Virus record (IMG/VR): IMGVR_UViG_3300030406_004081
Span: 1-34,090 of that record
DNA from: a virus
Length of the DNA: 34,090 nt
Reading direction: 5' to 3' (one strand)
Every line of letters begins with the position of its first letter. The stretch's first letter is position 1. The position numbers were made by a program, and so were the translations under genes. The notes under the pieces are model-generated. The model worked only from the letters and a program-made list of their open reading frames with translations. It was not told the DNA's origin and did no database searches. Positions 7,622 through 34,090 of the stretch are shown piece after piece.

Positions 7622-8152
7622 TTATCCCCTCAGCGCCATATCTATTTTCCTTGCGATTCTTCTCAGTCCTTTCTGTTCCTGTTCTTTTGTAATTCCGAAC
7701 CATTCTCGTTTAGGAACTCCAGTATGTCGAACCTTACGAGCAAAAAACGTAGAACCTCGATCATTATAAATCGGGCCTAATACGTTAGCATTTCTAGGCC
7801 TAATCGTATATGGACGAGTCCCGTTCTGATGATATGTTCCTATATCCTGACGGCTTTTAGGAGGGACTATTCTAGCCCTCTGATTTGTCTTAGTTGCTCT
7901 ATTGACTACAGACACATCGACCATCGTTCCAGTATCATATAGAGGAACCCTAGGCCTAGAGGAACCCTTAGCCCTCTTGCTGTGAATCGTACTGGGACGC
8001 AACTTCTTTAATTTCCTCCCCTTAATACCGACTCCTAGTTTCCCTCGTTTTTTATGGTCTGCTACTATTGAATCGGCCATTAAATTTATTTCTCTAGTCA
8101 GGTCTAATTTTCTGACTACTTTTTCTAAACTAAAATTCTTTCTTATTTTCAT
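7622..8152 (-). CDS. Phage virion morphogenesis protein (Mu gpG-like)
   Basis: 176 aa, basic. Helical N-terminus, then PLYDTGTMVDVSV, then IGTYHQNGTRPYTIRPR, and the family's closing pattern RHTGVPKREWFGITKEQEQK followed by a basic helix. The GVPKRxWFG block is typical of the virion-morphogenesis/tail-completion family that includes Mu gpG. The gene lies between the portal and MuF-like genes and probably helps head completion or head-tail joining. Its first 23 bases lie under the end of a small membrane frame. Confidence 0.78.
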   Translation of the reverse strand: MKIRKNFSLEKVVRKLDLTREINLMADSIVADHKKRGKLGVGIKGRKLKKLRPSTIHSKRAKGSSRPRVPLYDTGTMVDVSVVNRATKTNQRARIVPPKSRQDIGTYHQNGTRPYTIRPRNANVLGPIYNDRGSTFFARKVRHTGVPKREWFGITKEQEQKGLRRIARKIDMALRG

Positions 8153-8279
8153 AAATCCACCTGATAAAATCTAAAACATAATCTCGATATATAAATAGAA
8201 CCCCAGTAGATAGAAGAGTCAAAATACTTATATGACCCTCTCCGCAGGTTCCAAATAAATGATGTAGTAATTCTCTCAT
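8130..8279 (-). CDS. 49-aa single-span membrane mini-protein
   Basis: A short frame reading MRELLHHLFGTCGEGHISIL and then TLLSTGVLFIYRDYVLDFIR. One hydrophobic helix lies at residues 18-30, with a charged C-terminus. It begins 2 bases after the stop of the preceding mini-gene and ends 23 bases inside the gpG-like gene. The ribosome site is weak (GGGA). The compact join to both neighbours is the main support. It could be a holin-like or host-membrane-acting peptide, but nothing fixes the function. Confidence 0.45.
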   Translation of the reverse strand: MRELLHHLFGTCGEGHISILTLLSTGVLFIYRDYVLDFIRWIYENKKEF

Positions 8280-8281
8280 AA

Positions 8282-8452
8282 CTATTCCCTGACTATTCCC
8301 TCCCCCTTCCCTAAGGGTATTGACTTATCTTTTAAAGTTGTTATGATAGCGTCTACGTCTGACTCGTCTAATGTGATATTGATGATAGGCTCTCTCATTT
8401 TACGACTGAGGAAACTTATAAAATTATGCTTTGTTAATGAATTTTTCCTCAT
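8282..8452 (-). CDS. 56-aa hypothetical mini-protein
   Basis: Frame reads MRKNSLTKHNFISFLSRK and then MREPIINITLDESDVDAIIT, ending GKGEGIVRE. A shorter 38-codon version could start at the internal ATG at 8398; neither has a strong ribosome site. The C-terminal half looks like a small folded domain (INITLDESDVDAIITTLKDK). It lies in the 407-base stretch between the 81-aa gene and the gpG-like gene, behind a perfect hairpin. Function unknown. Confidence 0.42.
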   Translation of the reverse strand: MRKNSLTKHNFISFLSRKMREPIINITLDESDVDAIITTLKDKSIPLGKGEGIVRE

Positions 8453-8463
8453 TTTCCCGTAAT

Positions 8464-8483
8464 TATTCCGATTTTTCGGAATA
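8464..8483. repeat. Perfect inverted repeat (8-bp arms, TTTT loop)
   Basis: TATTCCGA-TTTT-TCGGAATA. The arms match perfectly. No T-run follows on either strand, so it is not a standard terminator. It sits 12 bases upstream of the 56-codon gene, after an AT-rich stretch (8484-8559) that may contain a promoter. It could be a protein-binding site, an RNA element, or part of a packaging site. Confidence 0.55.
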
Positions 8484-8559
8484 CTTGAATTTGAATTTTA
8501 TCGTTTTTGATAAAAAATAAAAATCTAGAGCATAAAAATCAGGCTCATAAAATAAAATT

Positions 8560-8805
8560 CTATCTATCTTGTTTTGATATTCGTTGCACTCCATCAGCGA
8601 ACTTCTCTCCTAGCTTATAAGCCTTTTTAATTTCTTTATTATGTTCCTTTAGGTAGGCCTGACCTAATGATTTCAGATACGGCCTGACGCCTACTTTTAA
8701 CATCTCATCTATATCAATAGCCTCTAAGACTTTATCAGCGTCCTTTTGCATTTTAAATTGGAGGATTTGAACATCGTCTAGGAATTTAGTTATAGGTTTA
8801 GCCAA
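8560..8805 (-). CDS. 81-aa helical protein downstream of portal
   Basis: Not recognised. It is lysine- and aspartate-rich and predicted all-helical (ITKFLDDVQILQFKMQKDAD, EMLKVGVRPYLKSLGQAYLK, KAYKLGEKFADGVQRI). The start overlaps the portal stop by 8 bases, so it is coupled to portal translation. Small helical proteins in this slot can be head-assembly accessory proteins; that is a guess from position. Confidence 0.65.
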   Translation of the reverse strand: MAKPITKFLDDVQILQFKMQKDADKVLEAIDIDEMLKVGVRPYLKSLGQAYLKEHNKEIKKAYKLGEKFADGVQRISKQDR

Positions 8806-10156
8806 GACTCCTCAATCCTCCGAATACTGGCTGATTAGCCTGCTCCTGCTGTGTTGTCTGCTGTTGCTCTTCCTGAACCTCATCGAGTTTTTCATCCAGT
8901 TCGGCCTCGCTCATGTCAGGATTAAAATATTTGAGAACATCTTTTTTAGTCATTATCCCATTTGCCATTTTCCACTCTAACATTTTCAACTCTTGATCTA
9001 CTGACATCGGATATTCTACCTCTCCAAAATCGACATAGTATTCATCAGGTAAAGTCATAACCTTATGAGTTTCTAGAATCGCTCTGTCAATAGCATATCT
9101 GTCATTCTCAAACTCTCTATAAATCAAAGTGTCAGCCTCTCTAGATTCATGGTTCTCGAGTTCCAATATTCTTAGAGCCTCACCGCTAGGAGCGTTCCCT
9201 CCTGATTCGCCCCATCTAATCCTTAAATGATTGTTTTCTGCTGTAACATTTGCGAATAGCTTAACGGCCTCAATCATGTCCATCATTGATCCATTAGGCG
9301 AGACATATTTGAAATCGCTATCCTCTCCAAGAAATAAGGCGTTGTCTATTCCTGATTTTATTTCTGACTGACCCTCCATGACTCCCGTAAATACTGGCTG
9401 ACCTAATGCGAACCTTACATTCAGAGCGATTTCTGTCATGGCTATCGATATCTGTAGCGCAGAGCGGACGACATCGTAGGAATTTTTATAGTTGTCTAGT
9501 TTAGCTATAGGGATAATCCCGTAAGGATTAATCATTTCCGAGTTATCTCCAACTGGATATCTCTTGCCGTCTTGATCGAATTTAAAGTGTGCGCCTTGTA
9601 CTCCGTCTCTATCCTCTGACCAATAAACGAACATCCTTTTATTTTTAAATGGAGACTCTACCTCATAACTCATCCCGAAAGGACTAGATTCCCCTATGAC
9701 GCAATATTCTTTCACATCGGGGAGAATGGTATATTCTAGCCTCTGTTTATTCTCGTTAAATGATGACTTGAAAAAACAGTCCCCTAATAACCAAGCTATT
9801 TCAGAGAACATCTTTATTTTAGAATCGAGCATATAAGTCATTTTATTATAATCGTCATTTATCTCGTTTCCTATGTATCGTTTACAAGGATTTTTATATA
9901 ACATCATCCTAGCCCTAGCGAATCGCTGAACAACGGCCTGAGGAAATACTGGGACTTGTTGTAATGAATCAGACTCGAACCATTGCTGAACATGACGCTC
10001 AGTATTTTGATATAGATAAAAGTCTAGCGCTGTTCTCCTCTTAGCTTTCTCTGACTCTCTATAATCCTGAGCGGACTGAATTAAACTCTTGATGACCGCA
10101 GATTCTGAATACTCAGGGAACACAACTGAGTTCACAGATTTTCCGAAATTTATCAT
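8798..10156 (-). CDS. Portal protein (SPP1 gp6-like)
   Basis: 452 aa, normal size for siphovirus portals. Features in order: helical N-terminus (KAKRRTALDFYLYQNTERHV), wing/clip region (MLDSKIKMFSEIAWLLGDCF, ILPDVKEYCVIGESSPFGMS, NPYGIIPIAKLDNYKNSYDV), stem and crown helices (RIRWGESGGNAPSGEALRIL, REFENDRYAIDRAILE), and a Gln-rich tail. It has GAGGAG 9 bases before the ATG. It forms the dodecameric DNA channel at one vertex and binds terminase. It lies directly after terL, as is usual. Confidence 0.88.
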   Translation of the reverse strand: MINFGKSVNSVVFPEYSESAVIKSLIQSAQDYRESEKAKRRTALDFYLYQNTERHVQQWFESDSLQQVPVFPQAVVQRFARARMMLYKNPCKRYIGNEINDDYNKMTYMLDSKIKMFSEIAWLLGDCFFKSSFNENKQRLEYTILPDVKEYCVIGESSPFGMSYEVESPFKNKRMFVYWSEDRDGVQGAHFKFDQDGKRYPVGDNSEMINPYGIIPIAKLDNYKNSYDVVRSALQISIAMTEIALNVRFALGQPVFTGVMEGQSEIKSGIDNALFLGEDSDFKYVSPNGSMMDMIEAVKLFANVTAENNHLRIRWGESGGNAPSGEALRILELENHESREADTLIYREFENDRYAIDRAILETHKVMTLPDEYYVDFGEVEYPMSVDQELKMLEWKMANGIMTKKDVLKYFNPDMSEAELDEKLDEVQEEQQQTTQQEQANQPVFGGLRSLG

Positions 10157-10168
10157 TCTATTACTCCT

Positions 10169-11374
10169 CTACCATCTTTTAGAAATTGCCTTATTATGCA
10201 AAATAGGAAATCGGTATTCAATCAGGTAAGTAGACGCATCTAAACAATGAGTCCTCTCCATGTCTGATTTATCTATACCTCCTCTCTTATCTCTTGTGCA
10301 TTGTTCAAAATCTTTTATCAATTCTTTGCATTTAGGGTCTATTGACAGCGTAATATTACCATCCCCTGATAGTAATTTCCTATTCAGACAATTAATCCTA
10401 TCCTTTTGAGTTGGATGACTCTTTCTTGATCTAATAATAAATCCGTTTTCTCTGAGGATAGCAAAATCACTTTTTGACGACTGGGTAGACCTAGAGTTCC
10501 CTGACGGGTCGGGATAAATGACGTCTATGTCAGGATATCTCTTCCTTAATGTTTTGCACATCTCTTCCGTATTGCTATTATGCAATATGACCTCATCGAA
10601 ATAATGAATCGTCCCGTCTGTATATTCTGAGGCAACTACAGCGCACATTTTCGAGACGTTAAAATCCAGTCCAATATATTTCACATCGCTTAGTTTCTGT
10701 GCTTTTTTTATGTGTTTGTCCCTGTCAAAATTGTAGGCTACTCGATTCTGTGCAGTCTCAAAACTGGCCTCGAACTCCTGAGCGAATATTTTAGGGTCTA
10801 GGTTTCTCTTAGCGTTCTCTATTTCTTTCTTAGGTATCCACCCCCCATCAATACTCTTAAACTGCCACGACTTCCAATCTTCCTCCCCTCCCTGACCTTT
10901 TAAATACAAGTCATAGAACCCGTTGGAGAACCCGTCAGGCGTTCCAATAAATAAGGCCTGAGAGTTTGGGTCTGTTGTCATCATAGGATAAATGACCTCC
11001 TCCCATACGTTAGCTTTTTGATATGCGTATTCGTCTAGAACGACTCTGTTCAAGTGAGAGCCTCTTAATTTAGACGCATCCTCTGAGCCTTTGACTGATA
11101 TCTCACAGCCTGCAATATTGATTGTTAGTGTTGAATTATTGACGACAGCGTAAGGAGTCTCTCTCGCTATCTTGGTCAGGATAGGGAATACGACCATCCG
11201 CCCCTGTCTATAAGTTGGAAGAATTATCCATCTACGTTCTCCCTCTTTAAGATGTCCCATGAGTAGCCACATGATACTCATATAGGTTTTTCCGAATCTA
11301 CGTCCTGCTACAACGACCTTATATTTTGATTTATCAAGGGCAATCTGCTCCATGACTGGAGTAACCTTAAACAT
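10169..11374 (-). CDS. terL: Terminase large subunit
   Basis: 401 aa. ATPase domain: Walker A AGRRFGKT (residues 23-30), Walker B RVVLDE (110-115) with catalytic Glu, coupling motif IGTPDG (143-148). Nuclease domain of RNase H fold: first acidic residue in YIGLDFN (Asp237), second in YPDP (Asp289), third in HCLDAST (Asp379). The protein cuts and pumps phage DNA into the procapsid with portal and TerS. The start overlaps the terS stop by 8 bases. Motifs are complete. Confidence 0.95.
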   Translation of the reverse strand: MFKVTPVMEQIALDKSKYKVVVAGRRFGKTYMSIMWLLMGHLKEGERRWIILPTYRQGRMVVFPILTKIARETPYAVVNNSTLTINIAGCEISVKGSEDASKLRGSHLNRVVLDEYAYQKANVWEEVIYPMMTTDPNSQALFIGTPDGFSNGFYDLYLKGQGGEEDWKSWQFKSIDGGWIPKKEIENAKRNLDPKIFAQEFEASFETAQNRVAYNFDRDKHIKKAQKLSDVKYIGLDFNVSKMCAVVASEYTDGTIHYFDEVILHNSNTEEMCKTLRKRYPDIDVIYPDPSGNSRSTQSSKSDFAILRENGFIIRSRKSHPTQKDRINCLNRKLLSGDGNITLSIDPKCKELIKDFEQCTRDKRGGIDKSDMERTHCLDASTYLIEYRFPILHNKAISKRW

Positions 11375-11729
11375 CTTTAGGATTATCTATTTCATCAATT
11401 CCAGTTTTTAATAATTGAATCGGCTCATGTGATTCGACTTGCATTTTCATGACTGGTTTTCCCTCTAGTCTATCAGCTATGAACTGCACAGCCCAAGCCT
11501 TACCCGATATCGCATAGGCATACGTCGTCCTCAACACAGCCTCCTGCATAGTCATTAGGCTTAAATCAGCATCATACTTCTTCTTGATAGCCTCTGCCAG
11601 TTCATCAGTTACAGGCTCCTCCCCTATCTTTCTAAGTAGGTCAGGGATACTACTTGTCCCCCTAGGCCTACCTAGTTTATTTCTGTTTTTTGGATTATCT
11701 AAGAATCCACCTTTCCCCGTTTTATTCAT
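11367..11729 (-). CDS. terS: Terminase small subunit
   Basis: 120 aa. It opens with KGGFLDNPKNRNKLGRPRGT, the proline/glycine/arginine motif of DUF5681-type small terminases, then two helical blocks (IPDLLRKIGEEPVTDELAEA, TMQEAVLRTTYAYAISG) and AVQFIADRLEGKPV. It recognises the packaging site and regulates TerL. It is placed immediately before terL. A set of AACTTG direct and inverted repeats lies just upstream of its start and could be its binding site (inference). Confidence 0.85.
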   Translation of the reverse strand: MNKTGKGGFLDNPKNRNKLGRPRGTSSIPDLLRKIGEEPVTDELAEAIKKKYDADLSLMTMQEAVLRTTYAYAISGKAWAVQFIADRLEGKPVMKMQVESHEPIQLLKTGIDEIDNPKDV

Positions 11730-11736
11730 ATCATTT

Positions 11737-11764
11737 AACTTGTTTCAACTTGTTTTATCAAGTT
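11737..11764. repeat. AACTTG direct repeat (10-bp period) plus inverted copy
   Basis: AACTTG at 11737-11742 and again at 11747-11752, exactly one helical turn apart. The inverted copy CAAGTT lies at 11759-11764. The first eight bases are the leader of terS and the rest are the last codons of the IbrB-like gene. The spacing is suggestive of a DNA-binding site, either a pac/cos-type TerS site or an operator. Confidence 0.45.
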
Positions 11765-12290
11765 CGTTTTTAGTAACTGGAATCCAAGAATTCGACCACT
11801 CAGCATCCTGAATCAAATCACTTTGAGGAATGCCCTGCCTATTTGCGAGCCTAATTACTTCCTCTTTTTCCATTTCTAATCTACTCATAATCTCCTGAAT
11901 AGAGCAATCCGACTCAATCATCTCTTTAACTATCTCAGCCATCTTCAGAACTAAATGAGTTCCTCTCGCTCTGTTGTGCCTAATCGTAGACATCTGAGTA
12001 GACGTTTTATCTAGGTTTAAAACATAACATACTGGGACTAAACCATTTGTCATCTTATATATTGTAGGATGAGCAGACACCTTCCATCTGTGAAATCCGT
12101 CGATGATTTCTTTTTTCTCGTTAGCTACGATAGGCTGAGTCCATCCGTTTTCTAATATGCTTTTTTTTAATAATCTCATCTCAGCAGGATAGACCTTATT
12201 AGGATTATAGCTGTTAGGGATAAGTCTATCTCTATCCTCCCAATAAACAGCGTTAACTGGCTGAGTTTTCCACGAACTATTTTTTACCAT
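11745..12290 (-). CDS. ibrB: IbrB-like ParB/sulfiredoxin-fold protein
   Basis: 181 aa. ParB-type N-terminal domain: DRLIPNSYNPNKVYPAEMRL, then LKKSILENGWTQPIVANEKK, then the signature IIDGFHRW (residues 62-69). A conserved NRARGTH segment (106-112) and a helix-turn-helix-like C-terminus (CSIQEIMSRLEMEKEEVIRL) follow. It begins 14 bases inside the end of the PAPS-reductase-like gene. That gene pair matches IbrA/IbrB of E. coli prophages, known as activators of eib immunoglobulin-binding genes. The biochemical role in phages is unresolved; no ParA is present, so plasmid partition is unlikely. Confidence 0.8.
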   Translation of the reverse strand: MVKNSSWKTQPVNAVYWEDRDRLIPNSYNPNKVYPAEMRLLKKSILENGWTQPIVANEKKEIIDGFHRWKVSAHPTIYKMTNGLVPVCYVLNLDKTSTQMSTIRHNRARGTHLVLKMAEIVKEMIESDCSIQEIMSRLEMEKEEVIRLANRQGIPQSDLIQDAEWSNSWIPVTKNELDKTS

Positions 12291-13512
12291 GTCTAATCAA
12301 AGCCTCCTTTTCAGTTATGTTTTTAGACTCTCTATGAGTAGTCCCTAATCTGTGCATTGAACCCCCCTGCCTATCCTTTCTATCTCCTTTCAGCGCTAAT
12401 CTACAAAAGAATTTCCAACTAGCCCCCGTTATGATATGAGGTACTCCATCGGGAATCTTGTCATCAGTTTTCCTATAGTGAGTCCTAATTAATGTATTGA
12501 TTCTCCCTTTCATCGCTCGTTTTTCCTGACCCTCATAGTTGTCTAAGAATACGTCAAAGTATTTACGCCAAGTCATATTATCAGGCTTAAAATCTGTATG
12601 TTTAGAGCGCCCTATTCGATGTCCGTATAGTTCAGAATTTGCGTATCTCATAGCAGTAGCAACCCCCTGAACCCTATTGAGCATCTTCTCCCATAATTCA
12701 GGAAAACACTCCTTATAGAGATGTAAACTCCTGACTGGCTCCTCTCCAAACGGAGGACAAACTCTCTGCTGAATCCAAGACTCAAATAAATGCGTTTTGT
12801 TAAAAATGTCATACGTCTTATTGTAGTCGAACCCCTTATCAGATACATATTTCCAAACGTCCTCACTTTTCCAGTCATAGATAGGATATGCGTTTATCGC
12901 CCTAACATATCTATGCTTTTTTTTAGCGACTTTTATAGGCCTCTTGTAATTTCTTAGCCATGCGAAATCTCCTTTCTTAGATGCAATCGCTCTATATCTC
13001 CTGAGGGACTCCTGAGTCCTGATTCCCATGACTACAGCGTAATATTTGCCTTCATACATTAACTTCATAAAAGATTCGACGTCCATATCAGCGTCATCTA
13101 TAAAACTAGGATGTTCTGTGATTCCCTGCTCAGGTAGTTCCCTGACCCATAATTCTTTTTTTGATCTATCCCAACAATACCACCAAGGCTCCTCATAACT
13201 ACATGAGTTTCGATGTTTTATAGGTAGACAAAACCATTTTAAATTTACATCAGGCCACTTCGAGACCCTTTCGACATATTCAATAGTCGGAGGATGAATA
13301 CACTCCTCATCGATAAAAACAACGTCTAAGGGTTTGTCTATTTTTAGCTGTTTTTTAACCTCTAAGCATAACTGGAGAACAGCAGTCGAATCCTTACCAC
13401 CTGAAAACATCACGACGACATTATCGTAAGTCTTAAATAAATGATGAATTCTATCTAGGGATTTGTCATATACATTTTCTTCAATTTCCTTCGATTTATG
13501 AATAGTCGCCAT
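12277..13512 (-). CDS. ibrA: IbrA-like PAPS-reductase-family PP-loop protein (DUF3440)
   Basis: 411 aa. PP-loop SGGKDS at residues 37-42 binds ATP, giving adenylating pyrophosphatase chemistry as in PAPS reductase, DndC and TtcA relatives. Further family marks are VFIDEE (64-69), GIRTQES (162-168) and PIYDWKSEDVW (209-219). The long C-terminal region (RVCPPFGEEPVRSLHLYKEC, GRSKHTDFKPDNMTWRKYF) corresponds to DUF3440 of IbrA proteins. It is followed by the ParB-domain partner in overlap and preceded by a zinc-ribbon gene and a cupin gene. Possible targets are sulfur transfer to nucleic acid or a regulatory adenylation. The substrate is unknown. Confidence 0.85.
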   Translation of the reverse strand: MATIHKSKEIEENVYDKSLDRIHHLFKTYDNVVVMFSGGKDSTAVLQLCLEVKKQLKIDKPLDVVFIDEECIHPPTIEYVERVSKWPDVNLKWFCLPIKHRNSCSYEEPWWYCWDRSKKELWVRELPEQGITEHPSFIDDADMDVESFMKLMYEGKYYAVVMGIRTQESLRRYRAIASKKGDFAWLRNYKRPIKVAKKKHRYVRAINAYPIYDWKSEDVWKYVSDKGFDYNKTYDIFNKTHLFESWIQQRVCPPFGEEPVRSLHLYKECFPELWEKMLNRVQGVATAMRYANSELYGHRIGRSKHTDFKPDNMTWRKYFDVFLDNYEGQEKRAMKGRINTLIRTHYRKTDDKIPDGVPHIITGASWKFFCRLALKGDRKDRQGGSMHRLGTTHRESKNITEKEALIRHGKK

Positions 13513-13513
13513 A

Positions 13514-13780
13514 TTATATCAATTTTTCATTTTCCGAGCATTGAGGGCATATCTGCCTCGTTTTTCCGTATGATACAAACCCCTTATAGTATAGAATATT
13601 ATTTGATGACGTTGAGATTCTATCTCTACCTACATCTTTCTCCCAACAACATCGACAACGAGTGCAATATTTTATCCTGATATCTGCCTGCTCTGAATCT
13701 TTGTTTTTATAGCGACCCGTTTTTTTTGGCTTATACGAACTCCGTCTGACCTTTCCCCATATCGTAAAGTCCCGACCCAT
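13514..13780 (-). CDS. 88-aa zinc-ribbon mini-protein
   Basis: Basic N-terminus (GRDFTIWGKVRRSSYKPKKT), then two Cys knuckles: CTRC-RCC at about residues 39-45 and CPQC near the end (about 78-81). That is the spacing of a single zinc ribbon. The ATG shares a base with the cupin stop (TAATG), and the next gene (IbrA-like) follows 1 base after its stop. It is probably a nucleic-acid-binding or adaptor subunit of the same module. No named family recognised. Confidence 0.7.
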   Translation of the reverse strand: MGRDFTIWGKVRRSSYKPKKTGRYKNKDSEQADIRIKYCTRCRCCWEKDVGRDRISTSSNNILYYKGFVSYGKTRQICPQCSENEKLI

Positions 13781-14523
13781 TATAGTTCTCTAGCAGATAC
13801 CCCATTAATAATCGTTTTGTTTATCATAGGATGGAACTCATCCTCTGCTCCGAAATCAGAATCAGGATGAAACGCAATAACATCCATAGAGGATTTTTTG
13901 TCTGTTACGAATCTATGTTCGCAATCAGGTTTAATTATAAAAATCATTCCAGTCTCTAAATGAAAACTCGATGATTTTGTCTCGCATATTCCTGAACCCT
14001 TGGCGATTATTCCAATCCTGACAGATGGATGAGTATGAAAACTCTGCTCTACTTTTTTAGGAAAATGTAAATGATTAAGACAACTCATCCCCTTTTTTAC
14101 TGGAGGGATAATGAGGGAATCTGTGCATCCGTTTATATATTTTAGACGTCCCTGAGATTCTATAGGGCCACCGACTAAAAAATAAGGCCTCTCCATCGTC
14201 ATTTTTATTATTATAGCCTTACCCTTAGAGTGTTGAGTGAATGAAAAATCATCCCCTACACTAGAAAACATCCCGTCTCCTAAGTTTATAGGTTTTCGGG
14301 ATTCAGTTGCTACTGAAAACTCTCCCTCCTCAACGAATAAATAATGACCATCTACAGACTGGCCTCTATACTTAGAATCTTTCTTAGAACTGCAATAAAC
14401 CTCAAAAGAAATCCCGTTGCTCTCAAAAGATTTTACGAGTCCGTGACTGCCTAGCCAACTTGTAAAGTTTTGATCTAGCGTCGTTTTCTTATTTTTGTTC
14501 TGATAAGTTTCGGGGATTTCCAT
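13780..14523 (-). CDS. Bicupin protein
   Basis: 247 aa with two beta-barrel halves. The N-terminal half (about 57-110: GHYLFVEEGEFSVA, INLGDGMFSSVG) is a degenerate cupin without metal ligands. The C-terminal half (about 150-215) keeps H151-x-H153, H163-T-H165, GIIAKGSG, then GMIFIIKPDCEHRF with H203, so a metal site is likely. Such proteins can be dioxygenases, isomerases or sensors. The start has no strong ribosome site and lies 49 bases inside the end of the previous membrane gene, suggesting coupling. Function in the phage is unknown. Confidence 0.75.
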   Translation of the reverse strand: MEIPETYQNKNKKTTLDQNFTSWLGSHGLVKSFESNGISFEVYCSSKKDSKYRGQSVDGHYLFVEEGEFSVATESRKPINLGDGMFSSVGDDFSFTQHSKGKAIIIKMTMERPYFLVGGPIESQGRLKYINGCTDSLIIPPVKKGMSCLNHLHFPKKVEQSFHTHPSVRIGIIAKGSGICETKSSSFHLETGMIFIIKPDCEHRFVTDKKSSMDVIAFHPDSDFGAEDEFHPMINKTIINGVSAREL

Positions 14524-14657
14524 TTGTCGATCTTATTTTCAATTCGATGCACTCTCCACAGAATACTCAGGATAAGACATAGCATCATTAGCATAGAAAA
14601 CTCCCAATACGGGAAATATTCTGTATTAAATAAAACCTCCCAATAGTATCTATTCAT
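14475..14657 (-). CDS. 60-aa membrane mini-protein
   Basis: One hydrophobic segment at about residues 19-36 (EFSMLMMLCLILSILWRV) between an aromatic N-terminus and a basic tail (KSPKLIRTKIRKRR). The ATG has a strong GAGGAG 4-5 bases upstream and overlaps the end of the ParB-like gene. It overlaps the start of the bicupin gene by 49 bases in a different frame. The positive tail suggests an N-out, C-in orientation. No family recognised. Confidence 0.65.
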   Translation of the reverse strand: MNRYYWEVLFNTEYFPYWEFSMLMMLCLILSILWRVHRIENKIDKWKSPKLIRTKIRKRR

Positions 14658-15231
14658 AACTCCTCACTAATAAAATTAAGGCGTCCTCAGTATCAGTCAA
14701 ATTATGCTCTATTTTAATATTATTAATGACTTTTATTAGTTCAGCCTTATGCTCATAAGATAAATCTAAAATAAATTCTGTTCTATCTCCCTTAACTACG
14801 TCGCTATCTTTTGCTGACTCTGTTGCATCGTCTAAGAGTTCAGGCATATCAAAAGACGGATTCGGAATATTTAGTCCCCAATTTTTCAGGCTGTCATAGT
14901 CCCATTCGTTCGCAATCTTATCCCAGTTCCATGAACCACCATTCGCATTTAAACGGATATTAAGTTCCCTCTCCTCATCTTCATCCAACTCAACCAGTAC
15001 AGCAGGAACAGACTCCATTCCTAAAAATTCAGCTACTTTCAGTCTCTGATGACCTCCTATAACTACATTTACTCTATCAGGATGATTATTGACTATAATA
15101 GGCTCAACGAACCCAAATTTTTCAATAGATAATTTTAAATCATTAAACTGATTCTCTGTTATTTCTCTAGGATTATACTCAGCCTCGATCAAGTCTTTAA
15201 TAACAACCCTCACCGATTTACCTTCTAACAC
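14650..15231 (-). CDS. ParB-like nuclease-domain protein
   Basis: 193 aa. ParB N-terminal domain: NPRE (residues 20-23), FGFVEPIIVNNH, IGGHQRL (58-64) and VPAVLVELDEDEERELNIRL. The C-terminal half is acidic with no DNA-methylase domain, although ParB domains of this type usually sit next to one. The start is GTG with GGAGAAAGG just upstream. It overlaps the Cys-rich gene by 14 bases. It may be a DNA-binding NTPase/nuclease-type regulator. The second ParB-fold gene in this phage, IbrB-like, is not closely similar. Confidence 0.82.
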   Translation of the reverse strand: MLEGKSVRVVIKDLIEAEYNPREITENQFNDLKLSIEKFGFVEPIIVNNHPDRVNVVIGGHQRLKVAEFLGMESVPAVLVELDEDEERELNIRLNANGGSWNWDKIANEWDYDSLKNWGLNIPNPSFDMPELLDDATESAKDSDVVKGDRTEFILDLSYEHKAELIKVINNIKIEHNLTDTEDALILLVRSYE

Positions 15232-15400
15232 CCTTTCTCCTTTTTTGTTTTAATGGACATTTTGACATCTGCGATAATTTATTAGGATTTTTTGCTATTC
15301 CGCAATATTTATCATTTTTATAGATTCCGCAAAATGGACAACTCCCCCCAGTTACGTTTTTAGGCGTTTTTTTATACTTTAAATGACAAAATTCATTCAT
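15218..15400 (-). CDS. 60-aa Cys-rich mini-protein
   Basis: Contains FCHLKYKK, GGSCPFCGIYKN, KYCGIAKN and SKCPLK: five Cys and one His that could ligate one zinc ion. It is basic throughout. The start overlaps the end of a 59-codon gene by 8 bases. The type is common among phage early or middle genes of unknown function; it may bind nucleic acid or a host protein. Confidence 0.6.
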   Translation of the reverse strand: MNEFCHLKYKKTPKNVTGGSCPFCGIYKNDKYCGIAKNPNKLSQMSKCPLKQKRRKGVRR

Positions 15401-15572
15401 TTAGATCAGATGTGAACCTGACAGAAATTCCGAACTCTGAGAGCGCATTAGCGAGTTTCCTTACCATCTGCTCGAACTCATCTCGGTCAGTTGGGTCATT
15501 TCTAACAACCCTCAAAGTCCATCCATCTTTTTTCTTAATTAATTGAACATCATCGAATTTAGGTTTTCTCAT
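15393..15572 (-). CDS. 59-aa hypothetical protein
   Basis: A gene of 59 codons filling the apparent gap after the replication gene. The ATG has AAGGAA 6 bases upstream. The sequence begins MRKPKFDDVQLIKKKDGW, continues TLRVVRNDPTDRDEFEQMVR, and ends with an amphipathic helix and GISVRFTSDLNE. It overlaps the next gene by 8 bases. The alternating strand-helix pattern looks like a small folded domain. Family not recognised. Confidence 0.65.
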   Translation of the reverse strand: MRKPKFDDVQLIKKKDGWTLRVVRNDPTDRDEFEQMVRKLANALSEFGISVRFTSDLNE

Positions 15573-15574
15573 TT

Positions 15575-16345
15575 CTATTCCTTAGTTGGTTTATAAAAAA
15601 CTTTACAGCAGGGACTCCCGTTAGCAATCTCAAAAGGAAATTTAGGATGATACTTTTTTCCACATTGTGAGCAGTAGGCAGTAAACTCCCCTGATATTTC
15701 ATTTTTTTCAAATAGTGAAAAGTCAATTCCTGACGACTGTTTTTCGTCATCCTCTCCAAAATCCCAAGTTTTGACGCACATTTTCCATTTCTTAATCTTG
15801 GTTTTTCCACGATACCAGTTGACAGACTCATAATGATTCCAAAACCTAGAGGCATTATCTAAATAATTAGGAATCTTTTTTTCTAAAAAGTATTCTTCAA
15901 CCTCTTTTAGTGTAGGCCTTGGATAATTTGTTTTCTTTTTAATTGGTTTAGATTCTATTTTATTATCTTCTATTATATTATTACGACCTTTCTCAACCTT
16001 TTTAGACCTTTCCTGACCTTTCACTAAATCAGGATAATTAGACTCGGCTCTGCGATGACCGATTTTCTGATTCTTCTCAAATCCTAGGAACTGGACGCAG
16101 ACATTTTCTTTAAATGCTACGAGTTTATATTTTACCATCTGATTTATTTTGTCCAGTATCCATTCAGCATCTAAATCACTTGATGGAATACAGAGATATT
16201 TTATTTCTAAAACGCTCCCCGTCATTTTTCCGTAGTCGTCCATAAATGGGAGCATTCTCATATATAACCATTGAGCATCCCTATCTAATTGATTGAAAAC
16301 TGGATCTATTGCGATTGTTCGATTAATCATTCTCCCCTTTGCCAT
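15575..16345 (-). CDS. Replisome-organiser-like replication protein
   Basis: 256 aa. The N-terminus (MAKGRMINRTIAIDPVFNQL, then YMRMLPFMDDYGKMTGS) is the winged-helix start typical of phage replication initiators and replisome organisers. A charged linker follows, then a DnaD-like block (FWNHYESVNWYRGKTKIKKW), and a C-terminal zinc motif (CSQCGKK ... CC). It likely binds the phage origin and recruits the host helicase, since the phage has no helicase or polymerase of its own. The start lies 23 bases inside the HNH gene end. Confidence 0.75.
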   Translation of the reverse strand: MAKGRMINRTIAIDPVFNQLDRDAQWLYMRMLPFMDDYGKMTGSVLEIKYLCIPSSDLDAEWILDKINQMVKYKLVAFKENVCVQFLGFEKNQKIGHRRAESNYPDLVKGQERSKKVEKGRNNIIEDNKIESKPIKKKTNYPRPTLKEVEEYFLEKKIPNYLDNASRFWNHYESVNWYRGKTKIKKWKMCVKTWDFGEDDEKQSSGIDFSLFEKNEISGEFTAYCSQCGKKYHPKFPFEIANGSPCCKVFYKPTKE

Positions 16346-16739
16346 CTTTTCGCTCCTTTAAAATTTTAAGTTTTTGTTTAAGTAGAGCATAAAATTCAGG
16401 ATTCTCGTATTCCCTTTTTTTACGAGTTTCCCTATTTCTTTTTAGTAGTCGATCAAAATTATCCTGACCAATTTTTTTAATCTTATGTTCTCTATGTTTC
16501 TCAGGATTTGCTGTAAGGTAGGAATGACATCCATAACACAAAGCCTCGCAATTCATCTCATCGAACCTAGTGGCGTAGGCTCTCCGTCCGAAAAAATGGC
16601 TATTATGTAGGCCACCCCTACCTCTGCTCTCAGGAAAAAACTTTCCGCACCTCTGACAAGTCCAATTATCCCTCTCTCTGATAAAGTCAGAAAAAACCTT
16701 ATCCCATTTATTTCGTTTTATAGACTTGCCCCAAGGCAT
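16323..16739 (-). CDS. HNH endonuclease
   Basis: 138 aa from the ATG that shares a base with the upstream stop (TGATG). A TTG one codon earlier is less likely. Zinc knuckle CQRC (residues 28-31) and CYGC (68-71) bracket the core LHNSHFFGRRAYATRFDEMN, with His48 and Asn63, and CHSY follows. The fold resembles NinG/HNH-type recombination nucleases in spacing. The basic C-terminal helix (NRETRKKREYENPEFYALL) would bind DNA. Placement beside the replication gene suggests recombination or branch resolution. Confidence 0.82.
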   Translation of the reverse strand: MPWGKSIKRNKWDKVFSDFIRERDNWTCQRCGKFFPESRGRGGLHNSHFFGRRAYATRFDEMNCEALCYGCHSYLTANPEKHREHKIKKIGQDNFDRLLKRNRETRKKREYENPEFYALLKQKLKILKERKDGKGEND

Positions 16740-17410
16740 CAAAACATCTCGTCAACTTTTGACTGCTCAAAGGACTTATCGTTGTTTTCTTTGACCCAAA
16801 TATCGAGACCAGTTGCGACATTCATCAGTCTATGAGTCATATTCCTAACTGCTACTTGCACCTCTTCAACGTCCTCAAAGAACTTAGAATCTCCTGCTTT
16901 GCGAGCGATAACAATATCGCAGGCCTTATTAAAGGACATTCCCCATTTAATATCTAAGGCCCTAGAGTCGTCTCTGTCTCTAACGTCTTTATATCCATAG
17001 TTTATTTTTTTCTCAGGTTGCTCAGTCACTATCTGCGATGTTTCGTCAGGCAGTTTATTCATATCGTCCTCAAATACCATATCGTCAGGGTCTGCAACCA
17101 TCCAAGACGTAGAGTCGGCAGTTACCACCATCTTAACTCCTAGTCTAGCCTTACCTGAGAATCCCATATCAATAATAGTATTATATAAGGCCTTTGAGAT
17201 TTGCCATTCAAAAGAATCGCCCTGCTCTATTTTGTACTGGTTATCCTTTCCGAATATGATTGGATTTCCCTTAACGAGTTTCGCAGGCATCGGATAAATG
17301 ATATTATTAAAATCATCTGTAGTCGGGCCGATAGCAGTTACGTCCTCAAGGCATTGAATGACGAATAAAGTATTCGCCTGCTTTTTGGTTATTTTGGTTT
17401 TTAAAGGCAT
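16739..17410 (-). CDS. Early protein with acidic tip, possible ssDNA-binding protein
   Basis: 223 aa, no named family. The middle (NPIIFGKDNQYKIEQGDSFE, ARLGVKMVVTADSTSWMVAD) could be beta-rich, and the C-terminus ends in a disordered, acidic and hydrophobic tip (EQSKVDEMF). That tip resembles the DDxPF-type tails by which ssDNA-binding proteins recruit partners. Position directly before the HNH and replication genes fits. This is a weak inference. The start has GGGGG about 8 bases upstream. Confidence 0.7.
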   Translation of the reverse strand: MPLKTKITKKQANTLFVIQCLEDVTAIGPTTDDFNNIIYPMPAKLVKGNPIIFGKDNQYKIEQGDSFEWQISKALYNTIIDMGFSGKARLGVKMVVTADSTSWMVADPDDMVFEDDMNKLPDETSQIVTEQPEKKINYGYKDVRDRDDSRALDIKWGMSFNKACDIVIARKAGDSKFFEDVEEVQVAVRNMTHRLMNVATGLDIWVKENNDKSFEQSKVDEMF

Positions 17411-17487
17411 ATTATAATCCCCCTTATTAGCTGTATGATTAGTCCGATAGTAATTAATCGGATAAAGATATTTTCTATTTTCTCCAT
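17401..17487 (-). CDS. 28-aa hydrophobic micro-ORF
   Basis: Reads MEKIENIFIRLITIGLIIQL then IRGIIICL, a single membrane helix. The ATG has AGGAG 8 bases before it, but that motif lies inside the codons of the preceding gene and may be chance. It spans the otherwise empty 17411-17474 stretch, which also contains the inverted repeat TCCGAT-N8-ATCGGA (17443-17462). Either a membrane micropeptide or simply leader sequence for the next gene. Confidence 0.3.
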   Translation of the reverse strand: MEKIENIFIRLITIGLIIQLIRGIIICL

Positions 17488-17825
17488 TCTACTTCTCCTC
17501 TTAGGTTTACATAGTCATTTATTAAATCATTAAAATACTGGACAAAGTGTTCTCCGTCCTCATCCTGATAAAAAGTTTTTTGCAGAACTACTCCTGACCA
17601 GTCTAATCTTTTATGCTTTTTTATCTCATCAAATATCTTAGGGTAGAAAACTCGGGCCGTCTCACTTATCATCTTTTTTCCTTCTCTTCTATTAAAGGGA
17701 ATCATCGTATTGCTGACGATTTCCTCCGTTTTTGCAGTCGTGATAAACGCCAACGAATCAGACCGCTTTCCTACTTGATAGAACCCGAGTCTCACTACCC
17801 ATTTGTTTTTATAAAAAACGGCCAT
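17475..17825 (-). CDS. 116-aa hypothetical early protein
   Basis: Not recognised. An N-terminal beta-like segment (FYKNKWVVRLGFYQVGKRSD, LAFITTAKTEEIVSN) leads into charged helices (ISETARVFYPKIFDEIKKHK) and an aromatic end (FYQDEDGEHFVQYFNDLIND). No Cys cluster or signal peptide. The ATG overlaps the stop of the winged-helix gene. It belongs to the early block of small proteins. Confidence 0.65.
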   Translation of the reverse strand: MAVFYKNKWVVRLGFYQVGKRSDSLAFITTAKTEEIVSNTMIPFNRREGKKMISETARVFYPKIFDEIKKHKRLDWSGVVLQKTFYQDEDGEHFVQYFNDLINDYVNLRGEVEWRK

Positions 17826-18049
17826 TATAAGGCTAATTCGCCCTCAGGAATTAGTTTATAAATGGCATGGCCTGACGTTGCTAGATTGTGGATATTCATT
17901 CCCTCTTTATTCAACTCATGAACGACAGCAGATAATCGATAACTCTTGAATAATTGAATCGCATCTCGCTGAGTTAATTTATGACCCTGCTGAAAATATC
18001 TTTTGATCCGTTCTTTTTTAGTAGGCTTTTTAATTTGGCTTTTTAACAT
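17825..18049 (-). CDS. Small winged-helix DNA-binding protein
   Basis: 74 aa. The block KKERIKRYFQQGHKLTQRDA, IQLFKSYRLSAVVHELNKEG, then a wing (HAIYKLIPEGEL) is the phage helix-turn-helix pattern in which a Leu-Thr-x-x-(D/E)A start is followed by RLxxxIxxLxxxG. It is likely a regulator of early or middle transcription, or a replication accessory factor. It overlaps the preceding gene by 20 bases, with GGAG upstream of the ATG. Confidence 0.75.
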   Translation of the reverse strand: MLKSQIKKPTKKERIKRYFQQGHKLTQRDAIQLFKSYRLSAVVHELNKEGMNIHNLATSGHAIYKLIPEGELAL

Positions 18050-18425
18050 TTAGCTTAACTCCCTTTACTTGCGACAGCCTCAAAGCTAACTCAGAGGCTA
18101 CCATTTTAACAAAATTATGATGTCTTTTTTCATAGTGTTTATAATGTTTGACGTTTTCTTTTTTGTCCTTGATTTGATGAAATAAGATGCCTAATTCGAT
18201 GACAATATCCGAAAGGCATCTCCAAGCCTGATGACCCGTAATGCTTTTAGAATCTTTCCAATACTCGCTATAACCGAATAGAGTTTTATGCCTTAGCTTT
18301 TTATATTCTTTTTTATAATCCATCAGGCAGGCCTCTTCAAAAATCTCAGTTCCTAACGCCATAAGGCCATCGTAATTCGTAAATAAATCACGATGACCCT
18401 TACAAGTTTCACAGATACAACTCAT
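18030..18425 (-). CDS. 131-aa hypothetical early protein with N-terminal Cys/His cluster
   Basis: The N-terminus MSCICETCKGHRD carries three Cys and a His, able to bind one zinc ion. The rest is helical and basic with many His/Lys/Tyr (KHYKHYEKRHHNFVKMVASE). It overlaps the upstream gene by 4 bases (ATGA type) and the downstream one by 20. No family recognised. Confidence 0.65.
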   Translation of the reverse strand: MSCICETCKGHRDLFTNYDGLMALGTEIFEEACLMDYKKEYKKLRHKTLFGYSEYWKDSKSITGHQAWRCLSDIVIELGILFHQIKDKKENVKHYKHYEKRHHNFVKMVASELALRLSQVKGVKLNVKKPN

Positions 18426-18907
18426 TTTTTCTCCCTATGAACTGTCTCTAATTCCTCAGAGAATTTAGTTTTCCATCTCCAAACGTCATCCTGAATCTTT
18501 TGCAGACTAGCCTCCATATCCTTTCCGTCCTGATGTTCTTTTGTATCATAGCAAGTCCACAGACCTTCAATGAGAGCGACAGTCTCGATTATAAAATTTG
18601 AGGGGAGCGAGTTGACAAATGATACGGAGTTCACTTCTGCGGAGTGTGTATCCTCTCCCCCCTCTAAAATTTCCATAGATTTAATAACTTTCTGAACAAA
18701 TCTAGTTCTGTCGCTTATTTTACGGCTGTCGTAGCCTACCTCTAAAACTCTCAAGTTTGGACATGACCCGACATAGGAATCAAATCCCTTCAACTTTGCA
18801 TCTGTCAATCTACTAAATAAATTCTCAAATGTGTCCTCAAGAATTACCTGAAAGTCGCATTCAGGATTAGAGTATTCAACAGTAGCGTACCATAAACATT
18901 CTTTCAT
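18422..18907 (-). CDS. 161-aa hypothetical early protein
   Basis: Start chosen at the second ATG because GGAGG lies 8 bases before it, while the ATG 15 bases upstream has none. Product begins MKECLWYATVEYSNPECDFQ and has a mixed alpha/beta pattern, with GYDSRKISDRTRFVQKVIKS and a charged C-terminal helix. Four or five Cys are scattered, with no zinc pattern. Function unknown. Confidence 0.65.
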   Translation of the reverse strand: MKECLWYATVEYSNPECDFQVILEDTFENLFSRLTDAKLKGFDSYVGSCPNLRVLEVGYDSRKISDRTRFVQKVIKSMEILEGGEDTHSAEVNSVSFVNSLPSNFIIETVALIEGLWTCYDTKEHQDGKDMEASLQKIQDDVWRWKTKFSEELETVHREKK

Positions 18908-18908
18908 C

Positions 18909-19151
18909 TTAACAACCTCCATCGCAACAGTCGCAGGATTTACGAGGCCATTTACCCGTCTTAATATCCTTAAACCTCTTCAATTTATCCCCGATTGCCC
19001 TAAGGCCGTAATAGTCGCCCCAACTTCCCCTCTGCGCTACGATTGCGAACTCTAGCGCAGTTTCATCAGTCCACTCGAACTCCTTAGGAGCGTCCTCTAG
19101 ATTTCTAAATACTAATGGGACTGATTCGTACATTTTTGGATTTTTAGCCAT
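18909..19151 (-). CDS. 80-aa early protein with C-terminal Cys cluster
   Basis: Acidic body (VFRNLEDAPKEFEWTDETAL, RGSWGDYYGLRAIGDKLKRF) and a C-terminus CDCCDGGC, an unusually dense four-Cys tail in eight residues. Such a tail may bind metal or be a redox centre. The gene follows the first operon gene after 2 bases. Family not recognised. Confidence 0.65.
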   Translation of the reverse strand: MAKNPKMYESVPLVFRNLEDAPKEFEWTDETALEFAIVAQRGSWGDYYGLRAIGDKLKRFKDIKTGKWPRKSCDCCDGGC

Positions 19152-19153
19152 GA

Positions 19154-19552
19154 CTATTCCTCCTCCTGAATATCTGCAATTCTGAAAGGCTCCTCATCGA
19201 ATCTCCATATCATATCTAGGTCATGTCTACCCTTATTCTCGATGATTTGCAAAACTTGATTTAGATAGCAAAATGCTGACATAGTAGGCAAGGTCTCCAT
19301 ATCATCCTCAGGTAGTCTATAAGCTGTAGGCTCTCCGTCAGAGTCAATCTCTACTAGGACATCAAAATCGATCACGATTTCATTATCCTTTAGTCCTATA
19401 TCCTTAATGATACCCATTCTCCTTTCAGTTGGATGTTTACCATTGTTTTTTAACAACTCTAATTCAGCGCCCCTCATCGCCTTACAAGCGATAATCTGAT
19501 TCCCTTTCTTGAGTAAGTCTTGGGCTTTTAGTAGGTCGTTTAAATATTCCAT
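19154..19552 (-). CDS. First gene of the leftward early operon, unknown
   Basis: 132 aa, acidic. The N-terminal helix (YLNDLLKAQDLLKKGNQIIA) is followed by a beta-like DNEIVIDFDVLVEIDSDGEP, and the end is very acidic (RIADIQEEE). AAAGGAG lies 8 bases before the ATG, one of the best ribosome sites in the window. As promoter-proximal early gene it may act on host functions, for instance as a nucleic-acid mimic given its charge, but that is speculation. Confidence 0.7.
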   Translation of the reverse strand: MEYLNDLLKAQDLLKKGNQIIACKAMRGAELELLKNNGKHPTERRMGIIKDIGLKDNEIVIDFDVLVEIDSDGEPTAYRLPEDDMETLPTMSAFCYLNQVLQIIENKGRHDLDMIWRFDEEPFRIADIQEEE

Positions 19553-19604
19553 GTTTGAACTCCTTTATTTTTGATTCATTTGTCGCTGAGATAATAATGA
19601 TAAA

Positions 19605-19633
19605 AATAAATTCAGCGCAAGTATTTTTGTAAA
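19605..19633 (-). promoter_or_regulatory. Possible promoter of the leftward operon
   Basis: Reading leftwards: TTTACA (19633-19628, 5/6 match to the -35 box), 17 bases, TTTATT (19610-19605, 4/6 match to -10). The region between this and the divergent plus-strand promoter is very AT-rich, so other boxes are possible. Placement 50 bases before the first gene is appropriate. Confidence 0.35.
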
Positions 19634-19692
19634 CTTTTATTATTTATTTTTTTATTCCTTATATATATACCGACGAGAAATAAACTTTTATT

Positions 19693-19711
19693 AATTATAT
19701 TGTAAATAATT
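19693..19711. promoter_or_regulatory. Palindromic operator candidate
   Basis: AATTAT-N7-ATAATT, abutting the -35 box of the plus-strand promoter. The size (19 bp) suits a dimeric XRE repressor such as the one at the end of the operon. AT-richness makes a chance palindrome quite possible. Confidence 0.3.
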
Positions 19712-19712
19712 G

Positions 19713-19742
19713 TTGACACTTATGCTCCAGTTTCTATATATT
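19713..19742 (+). promoter_or_regulatory. Sigma70-type promoter of the amidoligase operon
   Basis: Perfect TTGACA at 19713-19718 and TATATA/TATATT at 19735-19742, 16-18 bases apart. Transcription would begin near 19749, leaving a roughly 45-base leader before the amidoligase start. It is the clearest promoter in the window. Confidence 0.75.
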
Positions 19743-19793
19743 ATCACCATGACAAATGATACAAATAACAACAGTTCACAAAGGAGTAAAAAA

Positions 19794-20789: not shown

Positions 20790-20791
20790 AA

Positions 20792-21715: not shown

Positions 21716-21716
21716 T

Positions 21717-34057: not shown

Positions 34058-34090
34058 CGTGTTCTCCTAGATACTTTCTTTCCGACTTTC
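34054..34090 (-). CDS. C-terminal end of DUF5872-like gene (right copy, cut by window edge)
   Basis: The last 12 codons or so of the basic-protein gene complete at 742-1137; identical to that copy over the visible length. Confidence 0.85.
   Translation of the reverse strand, partial: KVGKKVSRRTR

Follow-up and report, generated by a model that had tools for sequence, protein, structure and literature searches.

A bicupin and a second ParB gene accompany the IbrA-IbrB pair in a recurring viral cassette that may act on phage DNA

In Escherichia coli, ibrAB co-activates the eib genes, and the IbrA-IbrB pair of Escherichia phage PhiR5_2 carries the record note 'Co-activator of prophage gene expression'. 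In the present study, we analysed a relative of this pair in IMG/VR record IMGVR_UViG_3300030406_004081, an uncultivated virus of 34,090 bases (the window, meaning the whole of that stretch), where the pair is accompanied by a double-cupin protein (bicupin) and a second ParB protein (ParB2). A preliminary description of this DNA had compared the arrangement with ibrA-ibrB of E. coli prophages, and PhiR5_2 is indeed annotated likewise, with the same pair, order and gene overlap as the window; unlike in the window, however, no bicupin, second ParB gene or terminase is annotated beside the pair in its 7.4 kb stretch. The pair, its spread among phages and its co-activator label are already known (PMC4490671, PMC8813620), and the passages of these two papers that concern IbrA-IbrB only annotate it or place it phylogenetically. 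What our analysis adds is that the unit recurring in viral contigs is ParB2-bicupin-(accessory)-IbrA-IbrB, the known pair being only half of it. The cassette has the look of a chemical pathway not studied so far, possibly one directed at phage DNA, and the open-access literature that we searched yielded nothing on a ParB2-bicupin-IbrAB cassette, on a link between bicupin and PP-loop enzymes or on a cupin-IbrB fusion beyond record annotations.

Four other described systems invite comparison. Genes gp1 to gp6 of Mycobacterium phage Phlyer, namely ParB, two small genes (gp2, gp3), IbrA, IbrB and TerL, follow the window order with the two small genes instead of the bicupin, and gp1 matches the ParB2 profile weakly (1e-4) and no Pfam family. 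The Dnd systems of DNA phosphorothioation, according to the relevant part of PMC10853773, pair a PP-loop ATP pyrophosphatase (DndC) with the ParB-like, ParB-fold protein DndB; unlike Dnd, the window misses the DndC cut-off, has no invariant cysteine in its PP-loop protein, carries a bicupin instead and shows no DndA, DndD or DndE among the genes scanned. In the phage CmoX/CmoY system, as set out in the pertinent section of PMC12783734, carboxymethylcytosine is made and an asparagine-synthetase-like enzyme ligates glycine to it; the contigs concerned often contain ParBc-domain genes. The likeness lies in an AMP-forming asparagine-synthetase-like ligase together with ParBc proteins in phage contigs; unlike CmoX-CmoY, the window has no methyltransferase motif, its ligase would be of a different PP-loop family, and a bicupin is added. 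Finally, DUF861/(S)-ureidoglycine aminohydrolase has the same bicupin fold as the window protein, with no sequence-family match between them.

Along the direction of transcription, the genes of the locus are as follows.

14650-15231, minus strand: ParB2, 193 aa, first gene of the recurring cassette (ParB_N 5.2e-11; PHROG 498/620; GGHQR at the P-motif position).
14475-14657, minus strand: small open reading frame (ORF) of 60 aa with a hydrophobic stretch, overlapping ParB2 and the bicupin gene; lineage-limited.
13780-14523, minus strand: bicupin, 247 aa (Cupin_2/AraC_binding match its second half).
13514-13780, minus strand: zinc-ribbon-like protein, 88 aa, a lineage-specific accessory (CxxCxCC...CxxC, read from the sequence).
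12277-13512, minus strand: IbrA, 411 aa, of the PP-loop ATP-pyrophosphatase type (SGGKDS; PAPS_reduct 6.5e-18 and C-terminal DUF3440 1.6e-12).
11745-12290, minus strand: IbrB, 181 aa, ParB fold (DGFHR; PHROG 2159 'ParB-like partition protein' 1.9e-59; ParB_N 3.8e-4, below the Pfam cut-off).
11367-11729, minus strand: putative terminase small subunit, terS (DUF5681 1.4e-6; PHROG 2538 terS, E 0.018), preceding terL.
10169-11374, minus strand: terminase large subunit, terL (Terminase_6N/6C; PHROG 2, 6.6e-41).

The minus strand carries most window genes. From ParB2 through IbrB adjacent genes touch or overlap, IbrA and IbrB by 14 nt as the preliminary description had it, and the run looks like an operon; a gap of 15 bases separates IbrB from terS, which is followed by terL, so the placing of the cassette before terS also stands. 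The same description located its four genes correctly, all on the minus strand, and identified IbrA and IbrB by motifs that are all present (SGGKDS, GIRTQES and PIYDWKSEDVW; IIDGFHRW). It missed the second ParB gene, a member of the recurring unit, and the small ORF directly upstream. This ORF had no family match above cut-off in scans of domain and family libraries, and a similar ORF sits between ParB2 and the bicupin in 5 loci.

Recurrence was assessed with profile scans, from which we kept the best 80 viral loci for IbrA, the best 80 of 249 viral loci for the bicupin and the best 80 of 114 cellular loci for the bicupin; all three scans favour near relatives, the IbrA scan favours the window's own branch, and contigs too short to judge were counted as cut. 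Around the viral bicupin, IbrA lay within 3 kb in 78 of the 80 contigs, with 2 cut and none lacking it. Around IbrA, the bicupin lay within 3 kb in 56 contigs (15 cut, 9 absent), or in 42 of 63 once near-copies were removed (13 cut, 8 absent); IbrB was found in 77 of the 80 (3 cut) and ParB2 in 64 (13 cut, 3 absent). A search of IMG/VR with the bicupin only gave 28 contigs, 27 of which have IbrA as the next gene or one gene further on, and the last (L017) ends there. The genes are tightly packed as well. With near-copies retained, the ParB2-bicupin gap has a median of +1 nt (at most 60 nt in 104 of 120 viral loci), the bicupin-IbrA gap one of -1 nt (94 of 117) and the IbrA-IbrB gap one of -14 nt (92 of 110), and none of 426 cassette genes lies on the opposite strand. 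Often the cassette precedes the terminase in viral contigs.

Since the gene set recurs across contigs, chance association is excluded. Furthermore, because the bicupin follows IbrB in a minority of loci (3' of IbrB in L048, L050-L052, L054, L066, L068 and L095, and between IbrB and terL in L050, L066 and L068), its link with IbrAB is more than inherited gene order. We are all but certain that ParB2-bicupin-IbrA-IbrB is a functional cassette. The neighbourhood comparison called for in the preliminary description thus turned out well for the bicupin, the ParB genes and IbrAB, which recur together, and poorly for the zinc ribbon, whose homologues among the fetched loci were only those of a sister group of 4 other contigs (L002, L003/L108, L032/L109, L110). 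That gene does hold its tight position and its CxxCxCC...CxxC pattern; its Pfam match is sub-threshold (CxC4, E 0.032). Neither the zinc ribbon nor the window bicupin nor a divergent viral bicupin had a tblastn match at E 0.01 in 50,697 phage records, which restricts this bicupin version, in the collections searched, to uncultivated contigs and cells; the 215 IbrA-positive records of cultivated phages likewise contain no match to the window-type bicupin. Fusions of cassette domains were sought in the fetched viral and cellular loci, and none was found. Two variations of the pair deserve mention: one contig (L136 = L161, about 7908-20700) has two IbrA-IbrB pairs, one in a bicupin cassette and the other near an SNF2-type helicase, and in L022 (874-1521) a short extra IbrA-like ORF directly precedes the full IbrA, as it similarly does in L146, L148, L151 and L152.

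What might such a cassette do? In the reading that we prefer, and to which we assign, taken as a whole, a probability of roughly 40%, an adenylating IbrA decorates DNA together with the enzyme of the neighbouring slot. The bicupin, or another enzyme or a transporter in its place, would supply a small molecule; IbrA, judged from its family, would split ATP to AMP and pyrophosphate and adenylate this molecule or its acceptor, in amide or amine rather than sulfur chemistry; and IbrB and ParB2, judged from fold and context, would bind nucleotide and DNA and deliver the activated group to the phage genome ahead of packaging, so that decorated phage DNA results. Recurrent pairing with PP-loop enzymes and replacement by transporters suggest that the bicupin makes or reworks the small molecule of IbrA, and it is likely that the two proteins share a substrate. 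Phage DNA as the final target we rate at slightly less than an even chance. A fuller version is more tentative, and rather unlikely as it stands: hypermodification without a DNA methyltransferase, the slot enzyme or transporter providing a nitrogen-containing molecule, IbrA activating it (helped in some phages by another PP-loop enzyme and a glutamine amidotransferase), and the two ParB-fold proteins loading it onto DNA ahead of packaging.

The annotation of IbrA in the databases tells a different story, that of a CysH-type phosphoadenosine phosphosulfate (PAPS) reductase serving assimilatory sulfate metabolism as an auxiliary metabolic gene. PAPS_reduct and DUF3440 both score above their Pfam cut-offs, PHROG 2302 'phosphoadenosine phosphosulfate reductase' matches at 1e-81, and many phage records carry that label. 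The structural model (predicted local distance difference test, pLDDT, 89.7) folds like adenosine phosphosulfate (APS) and PAPS reductases, CysD and FAD synthase, with APS reductase 2goy as its top Foldseek match. ECGxH, the catalytic motif of CysH, however, is found in 0 of 58 aligned IbrA sequences, against 56 of 58 with SGGKDS; the NCBIfam scores are 22.2 for cysH (cut-off 165.1) and 19 for PAPS reductase (cut-off 254.2); and the wide IbrA profile places CysD 1zun (27.0 bits) by a small margin, nearly a tie, before second-best 2goy (24.8 bits) among solved sequences, the narrow profile finding no solved relative at 0.001. By the tests of motif and curated score the IbrA type is not CysH, and we give the sulfate-assimilation view hardly any credence. 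Because of these sequence features, virus surveys in which cysH is tallied as an auxiliary gene of sulfur cycling may have counted the IbrA type as well. IbrA-like proteins match more than 200 cultivated phage records (215-216), often labelled PAPS reductase, and the PHROG class of the family is 'moron, auxiliary metabolic gene and host takeover'. If the DNA-hypermodification reading were true, such phage 'PAPS reductases' would be DNA-decorating ligases rather than genes of sulfur metabolism.

Sulfur could enter in another way, with IbrA acting like DndC and transferring sulfur to DNA, and sulfuration was the modification named in the preliminary description. IbrA does match DndC at a low level (TIGR03183, E 4.4e-9; PADLOC DndC, 3.4e-12), and the coupling of a PP-loop enzyme with ParB-like DndB, described above from PMC10853773, runs parallel. 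The TIGR03183 score, however, is 35.7 bits against a cut-off of 290.4, and no desulfurase, DndD or DndE match was obtained among 20 window proteins (Pfam) or 7 (PADLOC). DndC possesses conserved cysteines for a cluster; in IbrA, C95 is retained in 53 of the 58 sequences and C104 in 50, which may be counted in favour of sulfur, followed by C269 (45), C252 (36) and C370 (25). As none of them is invariant, an obligatory iron-sulfur cluster or a fixed sulfur carrier is disfavoured, an argument that does not touch other sulfur chemistry; lacking both the CysH motif and an invariant cysteine, IbrA is also disfavoured for sulfate reduction, and the sulfur idea as such is weakened. Besides, the bicupin is partnered by asparagine-synthetase-like enzymes and by a glutamine amidotransferase of the stand-alone kind, which suggests amide chemistry. 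On balance, sulfuration of DNA has lost ground and appears quite improbable to us, and we lean modestly towards nitrogen rather than sulfur chemistry.

Turning to the bicupin, we aligned 60 of the 97 non-redundant sequences available, from phages and cells alike. E122, C133, Q160, H163, R169, H203, H219 and H231 are identical in all 60, and H165 in 59. The conserved histidine set (H163, H165, H203) is confined to the second cupin half, so that the metal ligands reported in the preliminary description for the double cupin are borne out for one half; a metal site H163/H165/H203 is predicted in the second barrel, and the protein is probably a metal-dependent enzyme. Its AlphaFold model (pLDDT 94.9) is nearest to the folds of DUF861 and (S)-ureidoglycine aminohydrolase (VIA Z 19-21 over about 205 residues at 10-14% identity; Foldseek 1sfn 1.1e-11 and 4e2q 1.6e-10), BacB and AerE coming next (Z 17-18.5). 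Such modelled likeness speaks to the fold of the bicupin, not to its function: Pfam and NCBIfam gave no DUF861 or (S)-ureidoglycine aminohydrolase match, only other cupin families at E up to 0.1, and ectoine synthase (PF06339) was absent for the window bicupin at that same threshold.

These sequence matches bear on transcription control, under which IbrA and IbrB would co-activate phage genes as in E. coli and the bicupin would be a ligand sensor or co-carried cargo. The bicupin matches AraC_binding of Pfam at 2.3e-9, and its wide profile found only short cupin matches among solved sequences, the RhaR sensor domain first (1.7e-4), with chance-level matches only for the narrow profile against solved structures; the PhiR5_2 co-activator note and the likeness of IbrB to ParB proteins, DNA-binding region included, also suit this view. 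Against it, the full, enzyme-like invariant set of the bicupin is equally present in cells, where IbrB is missing, the bicupin pairs with PP-loop enzymes, and the fusion of an ectoine-synthase-type cupin to IbrB, described below, is unlike a sensor. We consider transcription control improbable as the role of the cassette.

Because the invariant residues are shared, phage and cell bicupins probably do the same reaction. In a tree of the 60 sequences (low support, several long branches, L054 extreme) phage and cell sequences are mixed, with 9 phage/cell label changes as drawn, only 1 of which is forced by well-supported branches. Setting aside 3 of the 80 cellular loci that bear the phage cassette (L160, L161, L169), we found 39 of 77 loci with an AsnB-like protein, or a related SGGIDST protein of 350-370 aa, no more than 3.5 kb from the bicupin (between midpoints; 497 kb searched), against 7 loci with one at a distance of 3.5-9.5 kb (679 kb); the two PP-loop profiles used for this count were built from proteins of the same cellular loci, at any distance. 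Among the 38 loci without a PP-loop neighbour are the Maricaulis group and several Competibacteraceae. The SGGIDST family, which also has a GEHGDQLFGSD stretch, adjoins the bicupin in L167, L172, L180, L186, L210 (8724-9797) and others, and the L210 member, tested against Pfam and NCBIfam, had no match in either. As a separate observation, the Maricaulis-group bicupin stands near putative pseudaminic-acid genes, as read from the sequence. Since bacteria have the same bicupin residues next to asparagine-synthetase-like enzymes, a search for the substrate can start in cells and its result be applied to phages, and the bicupin link accordingly offers a handle on the role of IbrAB.

Accessory genes in the viral cassettes show comparable partners. 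A second PP-loop gene occurs in 24 of 104 representatives, mostly between the bicupin and IbrA (the L132 example is PAPS_reduct), and a stand-alone class-II glutamine amidotransferase (GATase-II) in 12 of 104, 10 of them on the IbrA strand and again mostly between the bicupin and IbrA; together the two would resemble a split asparagine synthetase. Some contigs have a PD-(D/E)XK-like protein between IbrA and IbrB (PDDEXK_1, E 8.6e-4, just under cut-off), others at this position a 165-aa protein without a Pfam match.

The occupants of the bicupin slot raise the most serious rival, an auxiliary metabolism in which the cassette would serve to produce, take up or convert a small molecule (such as an osmolyte or a derivative of an amino acid) that aids the infected cell, the DNA staying unmodified and the ParB-fold proteins being small-molecule kinases or regulators. 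Relatives of one sodium:solute symporter (SSF) occur in 8 viral contigs (L069, L072, L073, L086, L092, L098, L099, L100; L072 being a near-copy of L073), each an IbrA locus in which no bicupin was detected, and occupy the ParB2-IbrA interval in L069, L072, L073, L086, L092 and L100; the assignment is by Pfam for L073 and by NCBIfam for L073 and L100. A ninth relative belongs to a cellular bicupin contig (L197, 2355-3785), whose bicupin is separated by about 8 kb from an SGGIDST protein. L060, L062 and L063 have a TctC-type receptor in the slot (tested in L060); in L089 the slot holds an aldehyde dehydrogenase, whose best matches, below cut-offs, are of the aminobutyraldehyde/betaine-aldehyde type, and by eye a small cupin-like ORF; L098 has a single cupin in the slot, and L101 a cupin 3' of IbrB. 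A short-chain dehydrogenase/reductase (SDR) gene lies between ParB2 and the bicupin in 4 loci. Solute transporter genes are unusual phage cargo. On one reading, the bicupin would make what the transporter imports. Further in favour of a metabolic role are the ectoine-synthase cupins that accompany IbrAB in phages Gaia and XCL1123 and the pairing of the cellular bicupin with AsnB-like enzymes.

The ParB fold, too, is compatible with metabolism, as it includes the serine kinase SerK (PMC5120207, PMC12704722, in the parts that treat the fold), and it can bind CTP, ATP or GTP, the choice being unpredictable from sequence (PMC12704722, same part). IbrB, however, fits Spo0J/Noc far better (3.3e-6, across the ParB N-domain and the following region) than SerK/SbnI (E 0.6-0.8), and its relatives have D-G-[FYE]-H-R in 128 of 129 cases and DGFHR in 119 of 129. 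ParB2, aligned as the window sequence plus 32 of 67 kept, has a ParB N-domain with a different C-terminal part and GGNMR at the P-motif position in 63 of 119. Metabolism alone does not easily account for two ParB genes, or for the helicases and nucleases that neighbour the pair in relatives, and we hold this account to be doubtful, a contender to be reckoned with all the same.

The case for DNA draws also on cultivated phages, of which 17 among about 216 IbrA-positive records, hand-picked for variety, were read for neighbours. IbrB lies within 2 kb of IbrA in 16 of the 17 regions, the exception being Microbacterium phage Dewdrop. In 7 of the 17 (L241, L242, L247, L251, L254, L255, L256), an SNF2/ResIII-type helicase is next to IbrAB or one gene away; these are the Streptococcus phages D4276 and Pika, Lactobacillus phage AQ113, Flavobacterium phages FCL-2 and 23T, Fusobacterium phage phiFN37 and Pseudomonas phage Amjad_SA. 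An annotated terminase follows the pair 3' in 2 of the 17, Phlyer and Salgado. A DNA-directed role is thus indirectly supported, because IbrB is ParB-like over the N-domain and the following region, because helicases lie near IbrAB in relatives, and because the terminase is adjacent in the window, Phlyer and Salgado. A gene annotated as 'methyltransferase' stands by IbrA/IbrB in Arthrobacter phage Salgado (L249, 5536-6114) and Bacillus phage 031MP002 (L250, 5543-6094), with no Pfam match at 0.001 in either case; what these two genes encode could matter for the question of DNA modification.

Cultivated phages also supply a cupin of another kind. The gp104 protein of Mycobacterium phage Gaia, encoded directly behind IbrA, joins an ectoine-synthase cupin (PF06339, 1.3e-32) to the ParB domain of IbrB in one polypeptide; Pseudoalteromonas phage XCL1123 has an ectoine-synthase cupin (PF06339) and IbrB as separate neighbouring genes; and for phage Nebkiss a PF06339 match is listed under a ParB gene. 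A different cupin family is thus independently joined to the IbrAB pair, and the cupin-IbrB fusion was seen only in cultivated phages. An EctC match in MT835761.1 was dropped, as it lies beside an aminotransferase-like ORF (by eye) and without IbrAB. Whether DNA is modified can be tested directly in the cultivated phages Phlyer (ParB-IbrA-IbrB-TerL) and Gaia (cupin-IbrB fusion), both of which have laboratory hosts.

Several observations weigh against DNA decoration and should be set beside the evidence above. Where relatives lack the bicupin, its place is taken by transporters, single cupins or an aldehyde dehydrogenase, which suits small-molecule metabolism equally well or better, and it is mainly because the slot holds metabolic genes in relatives that we rate DNA modification no higher. 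Records describe the E. coli pair as co-activating gene expression; the RhaR/AraC-type matches would fit a sensor role too; the cellular bicupin occurs without IbrB; and C95 and C104 of IbrA are about 90% conserved. Protein distances over 26 loci (bicupin-IbrA 0.39, bicupin-terL 0.50) do not separate the cassette from terL. SNF2 helicase relatives were found in one uncultivated viral contig only (L136 = L161), near its second IbrAB pair; action on phage DNA, proposed in the preliminary description from the position before terS, therefore keeps its terminase adjacency, the Spo0J/ParB match of IbrB and the helicases of cultivated phages, and lacks comparable helicase support in uncultivated ones. 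Methyltransferase-type motifs were rare in 158 viral loci (N4/N6-type 1, SPPC 2, C5-type 1, by crude motifs in flanks of up to 10 kb), and a similarly crude test found no [DNS]PP[YFWC] or PCQ motif in window frames of at least 120 aa; given this rarity, the cassette shows no CmoX-type handle in its vicinity, and the handle would have to differ.

Beyond the cassette, a few further features may be recorded. Dewdrop (L252, 573-5628) has an IbrA-like gene without IbrB, preceded by genes for three glycosyltransferases, one acetyltransferase and one methyltransferase, which may constitute a modification cluster of another kind. Within the window, Rfam and tRNA scans found nothing, a promoter/terminator scan of positions 8000-20000 showed no excess over shuffles, and megablast of the same positions against named phages gave no match. 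At 32148-33188 the window encodes a 346-aa protein with a Cys-rich ribbon at its start, metallophosphoesterase-like by eye and without a Pfam match. A plus-strand run at 19710-22635 contains an Amidoligase_2 protein (PF12224, 7e-32), a class-II glutamine amidotransferase (GATase_6), a GGACT-like gamma-glutamyl cyclotransferase and a helix-turn-helix (HTH) protein; it forms a second amide-forming set of the same phage, and amidoligase homologues occur in 11 fetched loci. Finally, positions 1-778 and 33313-34090 form a direct terminal repeat of 97% identity, with 23 mismatches and no gaps. Because the first and last 778 bases match in this way, the record probably represents a nearly complete genome of some 33.3 kb, and likely a circular or terminally repeated one whose assembly includes strain variation.

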